Source: Streptomyces akebiae (GTDB taxonomy: Bacteria > Actinomycetota > Actinomycetes > Streptomycetales > Streptomycetaceae). From it: 64,000 nt of DNA. This document shows, one piece after another, positions 15,986 through 63,293 of this stretch. The stretch is taken from contig NZ_CP080647.1 in the NCBI RefSeq assembly GCF_019599145.1, forward strand, positions 8,370,001-8,434,000, written 5' to 3'. Position 1 is the stretch's first letter, and each line of letters begins with the position of its first letter. Under the pieces are notes generated by a model that ran no database searches, was not told where the DNA came from, and saw nothing but the letters and a program-made list of their open reading frames with translations. A program made the translations under genes and the position numbers.

Positions 15986-16284
15986 AAAGACCGGCTGGAC
16001 ACCTGTGTGCCCGGCCCGCAAGTGGAGGCTCCGCACTCCCACCTGACTGTCCTCCGGGACGGCAGGTCACCCGGTCAGACGGCCCCCACCGTTCCGTACG
16101 GACGGTGGAGTCGTCCGATACTGCGCCCCGCGGCACACCCGCGGCGGTGCTCCGGCAGTACATGGAGCCCCGCCTGTGTTCCGTCCGGGGCATTTTTCAT
16201 GGCTCCCGGTGGTTGGTCCTTATGTCAACCAGACATGACGCGGCGGTCCGCCAGACCGTCGTGTGGTGCTACCGAGGAGGATCC
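15986..16284 (+). promoter_or_regulatory. Long structured 5' leader of infC-rpmI-rplT
   Basis: About 300 transcribed bases without a convincing gene. Possible stems include CCGTACGG around 16095 and CCGCGG...CCGCGG around 16127-16145. A terminator-like hairpin follows at 16167-16197. Ribosomal protein L20 controls such operons through leaders in other bacteria; autoregulation here is inferred. The leader ends with GAGGAGG before the ATC start. Confidence 0.6.
16167..16197 (+). terminator. Attenuator-like intrinsic terminator in the infC leader
   Basis: GCCCCG (16167-16172) pairs with CGGGGC (16186-16191) across a 13-base loop, followed by A and five T. A U-tract is rare in this GC-rich genome. 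It lies about 90 bases upstream of the infC start, so read-through would control the whole operon. Confidence 0.6.
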
Positions 16285-60123: not shown

Positions 60124-60270
60124 GCCGCGACCCTATTACGGCCCAAAAATCCGCCGCGCCCGGCCCCGGGCCGGGCCACCCCCGGGACGCGCAGCGTGGC
60201 CTTGGCCACAGCACCGAGTGTCCACATGGTGGACACCTTGCACTGCACCTGCGGATATGTGTCTCAAACT

Positions 60271-60287
60271 CGTCCGTTATACGGACG
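60271..60287. promoter_or_regulatory. Palindrome upstream of the metNIQ leader ORF
   Basis: CGTCCGT-TAT-ACGGACG is a perfect 17-bp inverted repeat, 42 bp before the leader ORF start. It could be an operator for a sulfur-amino-acid regulator; no regulator gene is present. Confidence 0.45.
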
Positions 60288-60316
60288 GCCCACGCTCACC
60301 TGCTGCATACATCTGC

Positions 60317-60322
60317 TTTACT
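60317..60322 (+). promoter_or_regulatory. -10 box TTTACT ahead of the Cys/Met leader ORF
   Basis: TTTACT ends six bases before the ATG at 60329, so the leader ORF could be translated without a 5' leader. The -35 is poor. Confidence 0.4.
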
Positions 60323-60328
60323 GATCTC

Positions 60329-60415
60329 ATGACCACGACGAGCTGCCGCACCCTTGCGACCGAGGCGACGATGACGCCCGGTGCTCGTTGTATGTGTCGA
60401 ATGTGCGCCTTCTAG
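60329..60415 (+). CDS. 28-residue Cys/Met-rich leader peptide of metNIQ
   Basis: ATG 60329 to TAG 60413-60415. The peptide ends ARCMCRMCAF, i.e. codons for Cys21, Met22, Cys23, Met25 and Cys26 cluster in the last eight; Cys6 and Met15 are additional. The stop codon sits in the loop of a perfect hairpin GCCTT-CTAG-AAGGC (60407-60420), and a CGCGCG/CGCGCG stem follows. Only the methionine importer lies downstream (160 bases to metN). Ribosome stalling at Cys or Met codons when charged tRNA is scarce would alter folding of the following RNA; this mechanism is inferred. No other gene function is likely for such a peptide. It has a promoter-like box directly upstream. Confidence 0.65.
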   Translation: MTTTSCRTLATEATMTPGARCMCRMCAF

Positions 60416-60445
60416 AAGGCCCCGCGCGTCGCCGCGCGTGACGGA
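60407..60445 (+). promoter_or_regulatory. Leader hairpins overlapping the end of the Cys/Met ORF
   Basis: GCCTTCTAGAAGGC (60407-60420) encloses the ORF's stop codon; CGCGCG..CGCGCG follows within 20 bases. No T-run is present, so control may be translational or through Rho rather than intrinsic termination. The rest of the 160-base spacer also includes GTTCTC...GAGAAC, a further possible stem. Confidence 0.5.
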
Positions 60446-60574
60446 CGAAGCCTCCCCGCGCACAAGTTCTCCTCCGGTTCCATCGCCACCGCGAGAACCG
60501 TGTCGCGTCCCTGACCGCTTGCACCCGTGTCCGGGCACACCCACGCCCGCGCACTCGACAGTGACGGAAATCCA

Positions 60575-61651
60575 GTGATCACCACATCGGGCCTGACGAA
60601 GATCTATCGGGCCGACCGAGGTCGCGGCCGCGAGGTCACCGCCCTCGACGGCGTCGATCTCCACGTACGCGAGGGCGAGGTGTACGGCGTGATCGGCCAG
60701 TCCGGCGCCGGCAAGTCCTCGCTCATCCGCTGCGTCAACCTCCTCGAGCGCCCCACCTCCGGAACCGTGACCGTCGCGGGCCAGGACCTCACCGCCCTGG
60801 CCGGCCGCGGCCCCCGCGCCGGCCGGCGACTGCGGCAGGCGCGCAGCGGGATCGGCATGGTCTTCCAGCACTTCAACCTTCTCTCCTCCCGCACGGTCCA
60901 GGACAACGTCGAGCTGCCGCTCGAAATCCTCGGCAGGTCCGGCCAGGAGCGCTCCCGCAAGGCCCTGGAACTGCTCGACCTCGTGGGCCTCGCCGACAAG
61001 GCCAAGGCCTACCCGGCCCAGCTCTCCGGCGGCCAGAAGCAGCGCGTCGGCATCGCCCGCGCGCTGGCCGGGGACCCGAAGGTGCTCCTCTCCGACGAGG
61101 CGACCAGCGCCCTCGACCCGGAGACCACCCGCTCGATCCTGGCGCTGCTGCGCGACCTGAACCGGCAGCTGGGCCTGACCGTCCTGCTCATCACGCACGA
61201 GATGGACGTCGTGAAGAGCATCTGCGACTCCGCCGCCCTCATGGAGAAGGGGCGCATCGTCGAGTCCGGCACGGTCAGCGAACTGCTCGCCACCCCCGGT
61301 TCCGAACTGGCCGCCGCGCTCTTCCCGGTGGGCGGCGAGGCCACCGGCGACGACCGCACGGTCCTCGACGTCACCTTCCAGGGCGAGGCCGCGACCCAGC
61401 CGGTCGTCTCGCGGCTGTCCCGCACGTACAACATCGACATCTCGATCCTCGGCGCCGCCATCGACACCGTCGGCGGCCTCCAGATCGGCCGGATGCGCAT
61501 CGAACTGCCCGGCCGCTACGAGGACAACGTGGTCCCCGTCGGCTTCCTGCGCGAACAGGGCCTCCAGATCGAGGTGGTCGGCCGGGACACCGGGACGACC
61601 GCACCGACGGCCACGCCGACGTCCACGCCGGTGAAGGAAGGTGCCAAGTGA
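60575..61651 (+). CDS. metN: Methionine ABC importer ATP-binding protein
   Basis: 358 residues from the GTG at 60575. Walker A GQSGAGKSS, Q-loop VFQHFNLL, signature LSGGQKQRVGIARAL, Walker B VLLSDEATSALDP and the switch His (ITHEMD) are intact. The C-terminal NIL domain (about 255-340, VTFQGEAATQPVVSRLSRTYNIDISILGAAIDTVGG) binds methionine and inhibits transport when Met is abundant. The Thr/Pro tail (TTAPTATPTSTP) is unusual. First gene of metNIQ; the weak ribosome site (GGAA) fits leader-mediated control. The stop overlaps metI (GTGA). Confidence 0.95.
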   Translation: MITTSGLTKIYRADRGRGREVTALDGVDLHVREGEVYGVIGQSGAGKSSLIRCVNLLERPTSGTVTVAGQDLTALAGRGPRAGRRLRQARSGIGMVFQHFNLLSSRTVQDNVELPLEILGRSGQERSRKALELLDLVGLADKAKAYPAQLSGGQKQRVGIARALAGDPKVLLSDEATSALDPETTRSILALLRDLNRQLGLTVLLITHEMDVVKSICDSAALMEKGRIVESGTVSELLATPGSELAAALFPVGGEATGDDRTVLDVTFQGEAATQPVVSRLSRTYNIDISILGAAIDTVGGLQIGRMRIELPGRYEDNVVPVGFLREQGLQIEVVGRDTGTTAPTATPTSTPVKEGAK

Positions 61652-62385
61652 TCTGGTCCGAGACGCGGCCGCTGCTGGAGCAGGCCTGTTGGGACACCCT
61701 CTACATGGTCGGCTGGTCCACCCTCATCGCCGTCGTCGGCGGCCTCCCGCTCGGCATCCTGCTCGTCCTCACCGACCGGGGCGGCCTGCTGCAGAACCTC
61801 CTCGCCAACAGGGTCGTCGGGCAGATCGTGAACATCGCCCGCTCGATGCCCTTCATCATCCTGATGGTCGCGTTGATGGGCTTCACCCGCTGGGTCACCG
61901 GCTCGACCATCGGCCGTGAGGCCGCCATCGTGCCGCTCGCGATCGGCGCGATCCCGTTCTTCGCGCGCCTCGTCGAGACGGCGGTCCGCGAAGTGGACCA
62001 CGGGCTCGTCGAGGCCGTACAGGCCATGGGCGGCAACACCTGGACCGTCGTCCGCAGCGTCCTCGTCCCCGAGTCCCTGCCGTCGCTCATCTCGTCCGCC
62101 ACGACCACCGTCGTCGCCCTCATCGGCTACTCGGCCATGGCCGGCACCGTCGGCGCGGGCGGCCTCGGCGACATCGCCATCCGCTACGGCTACCAGCGCT
62201 TCGAGACCGAACTGATGTGGATCACCGTGGCGGTCCTGGCCGTCGCCATCTCCGCCATCCAGTTCGCCGGCGATTACGCGGCCCGTGCCCTGCACCGACG
62301 CGGCGGCCGGTCCGGCCCCGCACCGGCACTCCGGCTGCTGAGGGCCAAGGCCGAACCCACCGCGGCGGACGCAACCAAGGCCTGA
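61648..62385 (+). CDS. metI: Methionine ABC importer permease
   Basis: 245 residues; the GTG overlaps the metN stop. Five or so transmembrane helices (TLYMVGWSTLIAVVGGLPLGILLVL, IVNIARSMPFIILMVALMGF). The EAA-type cytoplasmic loop GLVEAVQAMGGNTWTVVRSVLVPESLPSLISSA couples to MetN. The C-terminus is basic and Pro/Ala-rich. It transports D- and L-methionine with MetQ and MetN. Confidence 0.95.
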   Translation: MIWSETRPLLEQACWDTLYMVGWSTLIAVVGGLPLGILLVLTDRGGLLQNLLANRVVGQIVNIARSMPFIILMVALMGFTRWVTGSTIGREAAIVPLAIGAIPFFARLVETAVREVDHGLVEAVQAMGGNTWTVVRSVLVPESLPSLISSATTTVVALIGYSAMAGTVGAGGLGDIAIRYGYQRFETELMWITVAVLAVAISAIQFAGDYAARALHRRGGRSGPAPALRLLRAKAEPTAADATKA

Positions 62386-62462: not shown

Positions 62463-63293
62463 GTGCGTAACACCGCCAAGCTCACCACCGCCGTGCTCGC
62501 CGCCGGAGCCCTCACCCTCGGGCTCACCGCGTGCGGCGCGGGCGGCGACTCCGCCTCCGACACCAGCGGTCCGCTGGTCGTCGCAGCGAGCCCCACCCCG
62601 CACGCCGAGATCCTCGGCTTCGTCAAGGACAACCTGGCGAAGGACGCAGGCCTCGACCTGGAGGTCAAGGAGTTCACCGACTATGTCCTGCCGAACACGG
62701 CGACCGAGGACGGCTCCGTGGACGCCAACTACTTCCAGAACCAGCCCTACCTCGACTCCTTCAACAAGGAGCGGGGCACCCACATCGTGCCCGTCGTCAC
62801 CGTGCACCTGGAGCCGCTCGGCCTCTACTCGAACAAGGTCAAGAGCAAGGACGACCTCAAGAGCGGCGCGACCGTCGCCGTCCCGAACGACACGGTCAAC
62901 GAGGCGCGTGCCCTCAAGCTCCTCGACTCCGCCGGGATCATCACGCTCAAGGACGGCGTCGGCACCGACGCGACCCCCGCCGACATCACCGAGAACCCGA
63001 AGAAGCTCAAGTTCAAGGAGCTGGAGGCGGCCCAGACCCCGCGTTCCCTGGACGACGTCGACGCCGCGGTGATCAACGGGAACTACGCCCTGGAGGCCGA
63101 CCTCTCGCCCGCCGACGACGCCCTCGCCGTCGAACCGGCCAAGGGCAACCCGAACGGCAACTTCCTCGCCGTGAAGGAAGGCAACGAGGACGACCCGCGC
63201 GTCGAGAAGCTCGCCGAGCTCCTCACCTCGGACGAGGTCAGGAAGTTCATCGAGGACGAGTGGAGCAACGGCTCCGTCATCCCGTCCTTCTGA
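62463..63293 (+). CDS. metQ: Methionine-binding lipoprotein
   Basis: 276 residues from the GTG at 62463 with AAAGGAAAGG upstream. Signal peptide with lipobox LTAC (Cys near residue 22). The NlpA/MetQ fold is evident from SPTPHAEILGFVKDNLAKDAGLDLEVKEFTDYVLPNTATEDGSVDANYFQNQPYLDSF and the later VNEARALKLLDSAGIITLK. It delivers methionine to MetI-MetN at the outer membrane face. It ends the operon; a hairpin follows. Confidence 0.95.
   Translation: MRNTAKLTTAVLAAGALTLGLTACGAGGDSASDTSGPLVVAASPTPHAEILGFVKDNLAKDAGLDLEVKEFTDYVLPNTATEDGSVDANYFQNQPYLDSFNKERGTHIVPVVTVHLEPLGLYSNKVKSKDDLKSGATVAVPNDTVNEARALKLLDSAGIITLKDGVGTDATPADITENPKKLKFKELEAAQTPRSLDDVDAAVINGNYALEADLSPADDALAVEPAKGNPNGNFLAVKEGNEDDPRVEKLAELLTSDEVRKFIEDEWSNGSVIPSF

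Follow-up and report, generated by a model that had tools for sequence, protein, structure and literature searches.

What is a short open reading frame (ORF) whose last codons are crowded with cysteine and methionine doing directly before the methionine importer genes metN, metI and metQ? In the window, by which we mean the whole 64,000-nucleotide stretch of Streptomyces akebiae DNA analysed here, we found a real, strongly conserved leader ORF that, from sequence comparison, is most likely a Cys/Met-codon attenuator of methionine import. The ORF, its place, its conserved terminal codons and an RNA fold inside it can be read directly from the sequences. The leader and the genes behind it, which follow as one run on the + strand, are:

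60329..60415, + strand: leader ORF metL, 28 codons plus stop (reading frame, conservation of terminal codons)
60575..61651, + strand: metN (Pfam ABC_tran and NIL)
61648..62385, + strand: metI (Pfam BPD_transp_1; best NCBIfam name MetI)
62463..63293, + strand: metQ (Pfam NlpA lipoprotein; best NCBIfam name MetQ)

The ORF runs from the ATG at 60329-60331 to the TAG at 60413-60415 and encodes the peptide MTTTSCRTLATEATMTPGARCMCRMCAF; a first-pass annotation of this DNA had described just such a 28-codon ORF ending in ARCMCRMCAF before metN, and had placed it correctly. Five of the final eight residues, CMCRMCAF, are Cys or Met. This clustering had been called striking, and counting bears that out: at least five Cys or Met among the last eight codons precede 1 of the 1325 stops in the window (both strands, stops with eight sense codons before them). 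Cys and Met account for 0.85% and 1.5% of codons, respectively, in 46 crudely called window genes. The stop is separated from the metN start by 159 nt. That the genes encode a methionine importer is supported by their Pfam domains (ABC_tran and NIL, BPD_transp_1, NlpA lipoprotein), all of which pass the Pfam cut-offs; the best NCBIfam names are MetN, MetI and MetQ, with all three scores below the NCBIfam cut-offs. The leader accordingly lies upstream of genes of sulfur metabolism or transport. Base 60574 immediately precedes the metN GTG at 60575, and a further GTG at 60527 is also in frame with metN. Across this start region (60527-60577), conservation around GTGATCAC favours 60575 over 60527, and annotations may differ.

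As an object the ORF is not new: it is an orthologue of S. lividans metL (SLIV_29928), with which it has position and peptide pattern in common. The reannotation of S. lividans TK24 lists metL, with the peptide MSTTSDRTPATEATTTPGARCMCRRMCAF, before metNIQ, and its RNA-seq shows the transcript to be leaderless (PMC8079986). The same report describes hairpins, the lack of a typical terminator and a peptide with several methionines and threonines; its accessible part mentions neither Cys codons nor conservation between species nor an RNA fold (PMC8079986). A short ORF with this peptide pattern stands directly before metNIQ in the window, and another Streptomyces leader of our set (L061) encodes exactly the S. 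lividans peptide. Among the papers listed by a search that mostly covered literature outside subscription, no other description of the leader was recognised.

The attenuator proposal had been staked beforehand on conservation of the ORF and of its terminal Cys/Met codons ahead of metN, and this conservation proved strong. Loci were chosen by searching MetN in 61 genomes, the leader itself playing no part in the selection. A close metN is present in 35 of 37 Streptomyces genomes, 34 of them with enough upstream sequence, and at all 34 of these assessable loci, found through MetN alone, the leader precedes metN. In a second family of the order (f3) it occurs at six of seven close metN loci, with ends of the form CRMC[SG]C before the stop; the seventh locus has 264 nt upstream, too short to assess. 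The leader was not found upstream of the two metN-like genes of genome G053. Among other families we examined 40 metN loci of the 61 listed outside Streptomyces, using a filter for distant loci (ORF of at most 45 codons, with at least two Cys and at least three Cys plus Met in the last ten residues) that could miss leaders. Leader-like ends, RRMCGC or CRMCR before the stop, were found at 2 of 18 metN loci of one family (f19), and at none of 22 loci, one of them incomplete, of the remaining more distant families. The filter also listed Cys-rich ends lacking Arg-Met-Cys (L367, L373, L383, L393, L405). Outside these two families of the order the leader is patchy or absent, and it is missing before most metN genes of more distant families.

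Three further searches started from the leader. A core pattern taken from mid-ORF, at three mismatches or fewer, matches 379 of 392 Streptomyces genomes, part of these matches being due to chance because a reversed control pattern matches many genomes too. The 17 genomes with no or weak core match comprise nine without a close metN (some of them incomplete assemblies), two at contig ends and six with a diverged leader. A blind scan of genome contigs with the terminal motif TGYCGAATGYGYN5CTGAGGGCC yielded at least 118 loci; among those listed, metN lies within 1.5 kb downstream at 111 of 118, and the other seven have less than 300 bp of downstream sequence. Beyond the family, the scan matched two Actinomadura loci (L246, MTAVRPCQPRRPQTMRVMGCMSACRMCDR; L270, VTAAHPCPTRRPRAVRAMGCTCRCRMCDR) and one of Glycomyces buryatensis (L300, VNGQHFERACDADRAAAQCCRMCAG). 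The gene downstream of L270 encodes ABC_tran and NIL, and that of L300 encodes ABC_tran without NIL and is followed by a MetQ-like ORF. Finally, a covariance model built from 69 leaders (R1) was run on 200 Streptomycetaceae genomes; at E of 0.1 or below it hits 130 of them, from 13 of the 17 genera, with a single match in 128 of the 130 and a second one in G458 and G530 at E about 0.065. The ORF was found at all 60 R1-matched places examined, mostly diverged ones; the endings of these loci are partly selected because R1 includes the terminal motif. Four weak class-level matches (E 0.005-0.085) have no metN nearby and were dismissed as probable chance.

The conservation is concentrated in the last codons of the ORF, at the following site of the window:

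60389..60406, + strand: candidate sensor codons TGT ATG TGT CGA ATG TGC (Cys-Met-Cys-Arg-Met-Cys), CGA ATG the most conserved (Arg-Met in 160/160, CGA in 152/156)

The leader count had 107 read and seven repeats dropped, and the final set holds 160 distinct leaders. Two further sequences, L092 and L111, end in RMCAS and RMCAI and stand outside the 160, their pattern not being matched. Three leaders (L034, L116, L117) are cut at contig ends, L040 has 264 nt upstream, and metN could be placed for 156 of the 160 (all except L076, L103, L176 and L185). Every one of the 160 ends in Arg-Met-[Cys/Arg/His]-x(0-2)-stop, while the rest of the peptide diverges; the residue after Arg-Met is Cys in 138 and Arg or His in 22. 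Within the last 12 residues Cys makes up 24% and Met 16%, whereas in the earlier part of the peptide the figures are 2.5% and 2.9% (160 leaders), and at least one Cys and at least one Met are found among the last 12 residues in 156/156 leaders. As in a trp-type attenuator, codons for the relevant amino acids stand near the leader end. At the Cys after Arg-Met, TGC (69) and TGT (66) interchange, which argues that the residue itself is kept. Overall, TGT represents 306 of 456 terminal Cys codons, compared with 16 of 138 in window genes. The invariant Arg is encoded by CGA in 152 of 156 leaders and by CGC in the other four, compared with 63 CGA among 1346 Arg codons in window genes, and CGA ATG is kept in all six f3 leaders, whose other nucleotide sequence is unalignable. 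CGA is a slowly decoded codon and may be kept for pausing or as an RNA motif. In 22 of 98 leaders the start and CGAATG are separated by a different distance, always in frame, and the distances from the stop to metN are spread over the three frames as 35/33/30 (98 leaders). The argument from frame is carried by this: start and CGAATG stay in frame although their distance varies, and ORF length alone proves nothing. In L054, L076 and L170 a longer stretch separates GARC from RMC, in frame in all three, which end in RMCAR before the stop.

An end so close to fixed might also belong to an arrest peptide, in which a nascent chain ending in Arg-Met-Cys would stall on a ligand (Met, SAM or another) and not on uncharged tRNA. 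The invariance of Arg-Met close to the stop (160/160), with the Arg kept even where it is written CGC (4/156), is what such a peptide would predict. However, the preceding residues diverge and Arg-Met lies at very different distances from the upstream GARC (L054, L076, L170), which is unusual for a peptide that binds the tunnel, and the inserted stretches are often themselves rich in Cys and Met (L004, L188, L189, L209). We consider an arrest peptide unlikely. The codon attenuator, our preferred reading, has features counting against it as well: CGA is retained at a position where a plain codon sensor could use any of the other Arg codons, and the putative sensor Cys after Arg-Met is replaced by Arg or His in 22 of 160 leaders. 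Leaders using Met codons are rare, and limitation for Met also affects initiation.

The nucleotides encoding the peptide also fold. RNAalifold on 57 leaders predicts a three-way junction within the ORF:

60335..60343, + strand: P1 5' strand ACGACGAGC, pairing with 60383-60391 (fold and covariation)
60347..60358, + strand: P2 hairpin CGCA....TGCG (fold and covariation)
60360..60381, + strand: P3 hairpin CCGaGGCG.......CGCCCGG (fold and covariation)
60383..60391, + strand: P1 3' strand GCTCGTTGT, codons 19-21, Ala-Arg-Cys (fold and covariation)

Changes on both sides were seen at 8 of 32 named pairs among 69 aligned sequences, a count that includes H2 pairs, and at 8 of 20 among 67 sequences. 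Four of five covariation measures exceeded all 500 shuffles, which ignore relatedness, and all exceeded slid controls; for further pair types, 20 of 500 shuffles equalled or exceeded the observed value with 69 sequences and 83 of 500 with 67. The compensatory changes amount to few events: in P1, AGC/GCT became AAC/GTT (G-C to A-U) in one related group, and in P2 and P3 the changes occur in L120 and L121/L122. The ORF folds better than its shuffles in the window (z -2.3) and on average in 40 sampled Streptomyces (mean z -2.0) and 40 others (mean z -1.2). The whole leader up to metN folds no better than shuffles in the window (z -0.59). In one genus (g27) a long hairpin takes the place of the three-way junction.

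This fold raises the possibility that a structured RNA, riboswitch-like or protein-binding, is what has been conserved, with the ORF incidental. The junction with some of its pairs compensated and the folding scores of the ORF (window z -2.3; mean z -2.0 in the 40 Streptomyces) are consistent with it. Yet the terminal codons persist where the shape changes (g27) and where the nucleotides become unalignable (f3), they remain in frame with the start, and Rfam offers no match, all of which makes this explanation quite improbable. The first-pass annotation had recognised no SAM riboswitch, and the Rfam searches of the leader region agree: a permissive search of 60200-60640 gave no match, and in the relatives L002, L029 and L121 a single snoRNA match appeared at chance level (E 0.86). 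A known Rfam riboswitch before metN was rejected, there being no match to the leader in the window and chance-level matching in relatives. At the gathering threshold, the search of the whole window returned one match, away from the leader: Scr1601, a Streptomyces RNA, at 15986-16198 with 175 bits.

Downstream of the candidate codons lie three features:

60407..60420, + strand: stem GCCTT-CTAG-AAGGC around the stop (sequence; weakly conserved)
60416..60574, + strand: spacer from leader stop to metN, 159 nt, C-rich (no T-run terminator found)
60550..60569, + strand: CGCACTCGACAGTGACGGAA, element before metN, conserved within Streptomyces (alignment)

The stop codon does lie in the loop of this stem, as had been noted earlier. 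As a switch the stem was rejected for its weak conservation: among 69 sequences, two of the five pairs fail to form in 12 and 20, respectively, and none of the five shows a change on both sides. No intrinsic terminator with a U tract was found in 60150-60650, a departure from the trp-type attenuator, and the longest T run in the spacer is three or less in 145 of 156 leaders. The spacer is 157-244 nt long in 98 leaders and rich in C (C 0.45, G 0.29), a composition that is no proof of a Rho site. The ORF fold is supported, and among the candidates examined no downstream partner that would make it one of two mutually exclusive hairpins gained support. A hairpin directly after the stop, with a mean fold z of -0.14 in 40 sampled Streptomyces and -0.75 in 40 others, is not general and was rejected. 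Candidate hairpins over the metN ribosome site differ in predicted shape between two clades, and no compensatory changes convincingly back them. Two relatives have a post-stop hairpin with the nearly fixed loop GCCCCGAA (L002, 1250-1383; L029, 1203-1329). The sequence CGCGCCCCGAAGCG follows the stop in 129 of 156 spacers and is absent from the window.

Translational attenuation could also work through long-range pairing, the leader end UGUCGAAUGUGCG binding CGCGCACUCGACA just before metN until a stalled ribosome breaks the duplex. Such pairing is present in the minimum-energy fold of the window leader and is strong within Streptomyces, with a mean duplex energy of -20.7 against -15.3 for shuffled partners in 98 leaders. 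But partners swapped between species pair equally well (-20.8), so there is no covariation, and in the other 58 leaders the pairing is no better than shuffled (-15.9 against -15.5), the metN side changing while the leader side does not. This candidate was set aside as unsupported, and we regard it as very improbable. The most improbable explanation of all is a functional Cys-rich micropeptide that just happens to be co-transcribed with metNIQ and might, for instance, bind metal or thiols: g27 ends such as CMCCRMCHC bear what we take to be a resemblance to metal-binding motifs, yet anywhere from 1 to 5 Cys occur among the last 12 residues (156 leaders) and metN lies downstream at every listed blind-scan locus with enough sequence.

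Upstream of the leader, two elements are conserved:

60317..60322, + strand: probable -10 element TTTACT, six bases before the leader ATG (conserved)
60272..60286, no strand assigned: inverted repeat GTCCG-TTATA-CGGAC upstream of the promoter, possible regulator site (GTCC and CGGAC in at least 95% of 57 aligned leaders)

A promoter-like box had been proposed at the ATG. A sigma-70 consensus scan found no promoter before the leader; what survives of that claim is the conserved TTTACT. From its spacing, and from the leaderless start mapped in S. lividans, transcription probably starts at 60329, the A of the leader ATG, so that a ribosome could load at once. The conserved repeat at 60272-60286 may be a regulator site. 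Its pattern has three matches in the window against 1.49 expected, and because 22 of 100 shuffles reach three matches the pattern alone is no evidence. Two inverted repeats lie upstream of the leader promoter, at 60272-60286 (GTCCGTTATACGGAC) and 60218-60236 (GTGTCCACATGGTGGACAC). Further downstream, CCGTGTCGCGTCC at 60498-60510 resembles a SenR site predicted before SCO1559 (PMC4991794); with a transcription start at 60329, this sequence would fall within the transcribed leader. In S. coelicolor, a 2016 study, as far as its available text goes, reports that oxidative stress up-regulates metNIQ together with cysteine and cobalamin genes in a manner dependent on HbpS-SenS-SenR (PMC4991794), a response that speaks neither for nor against attenuation.

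Polycysteine leaderless short ORFs of mycobacteria were reportedly described by Canestrari et al. in 2020. They are said to act by translation attenuation (PMC13236596) and, as far as the source describes them, resemble the window leader in being short and leaderless, in lying ahead of sulfur genes and in having Cys codons towards their end. The window leader differs in alternating Cys with Met and Arg around a fixed CGA ATG, and in preceding an operon that imports methionine. It lacks the consecutive Cys run of the mycobacterial leaders, reading Cys-Met-Cys-Arg-Met-Cys, and runs of two or three Cys occur in some relatives only (L201, L209). Candidate cys leader peptides are also known from Mycobacterium, Propionibacterium and Bifidobacterium (PMC1262725). 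In the accessible part of that 2005 Actinobacteria survey, they are likewise short ORFs with Cys codons near the stop, where no terminator was found and Rho was suggested, whereas they carry Cys runs and precede cys or cbs genes; for methionine operons, the same part reports no conserved upstream RNA structure with a regulatory role (PMC1262725). The Corynebacterium ilvB-II motif, in the portion of its report available, is similar as a conserved structured RNA overlapping an ORF rich in the regulated amino acids, occurring a single time in each genome some 150 nt upstream of the gene, but has a terminator stem followed by a U stretch (PMC10272879); none was found at the window leader.

Our preferred reading is that metL is a leader peptide gene acting in cis as a ribosome-mediated Cys/Met-codon attenuator of metNIQ; we give this a probability of about three in four. 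Of the sulfur-amino-acid attenuator proposed in the first pass, the leader stands, backed by sequence and by the leaderless S. lividans orthologue, whereas the stop stem as its switch is not supported. We infer translation of the leader in this strain, ribosome stalling, and likewise the amino acid that matters most and the output step, as follows. On a leaderless mRNA beginning at the A of the ATG, ribosomes would load immediately. With Cys- and Met-tRNAs charged, the ribosome would pass through the folded leader, reach the stop and leave, and in the C-rich, ribosome-free spacer transcription would end, probably through Rho, or metN would be poorly translated. With charged Cys- or Met-tRNA short, the ribosome would halt on the codons just before the stop and cover the stop-proximal RNA, and metNIQ would be expressed. 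In Rho-dependent leaders such as tnaC, a ribosome halted before the stop shields stop-proximal RNA, and the stop-adjacent candidate codons, the C-rich spacer and the lack of a T-run terminator would fit that scheme. An output at translation is about as likely, because that is the level at which the mycobacterial Cys leaders reportedly act (PMC13236596). Tentatively, metL might represent a sulfur attenuator of new design: a leaderless ORF that tests the charging of Cys and Met together at a nearly fixed TGY-CGA-ATG-TGY, in which the rare CGA may time the ribosome before Met and the same nucleotides fold, with no intrinsic terminator. Such a design would have persisted ahead of metN in Streptomycetaceae, in a second family of the order and in some Actinomadura and Glycomyces at least.

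In its available text, the S. lividans report describes metL as an annotation in one strain (PMC8079986), and the 2005 survey, as far as accessible, saw no conserved regulatory RNA structure at methionine operons (PMC1262725). Sequence comparison here adds to metL its conservation across Streptomycetaceae and somewhat beyond, the Cys codons and the predicted RNA fold. The overlap of a required peptide end with folded RNA makes the leader a useful case for finding small regulatory ORFs, and its conservation singles out exact codons as regulatory candidates. Should the leader respond to Cys as well as Met, it would by itself integrate signals from two linked sulfur amino acids. This conservation suggests that the leader is likely a general control element of methionine import in Streptomycetaceae.
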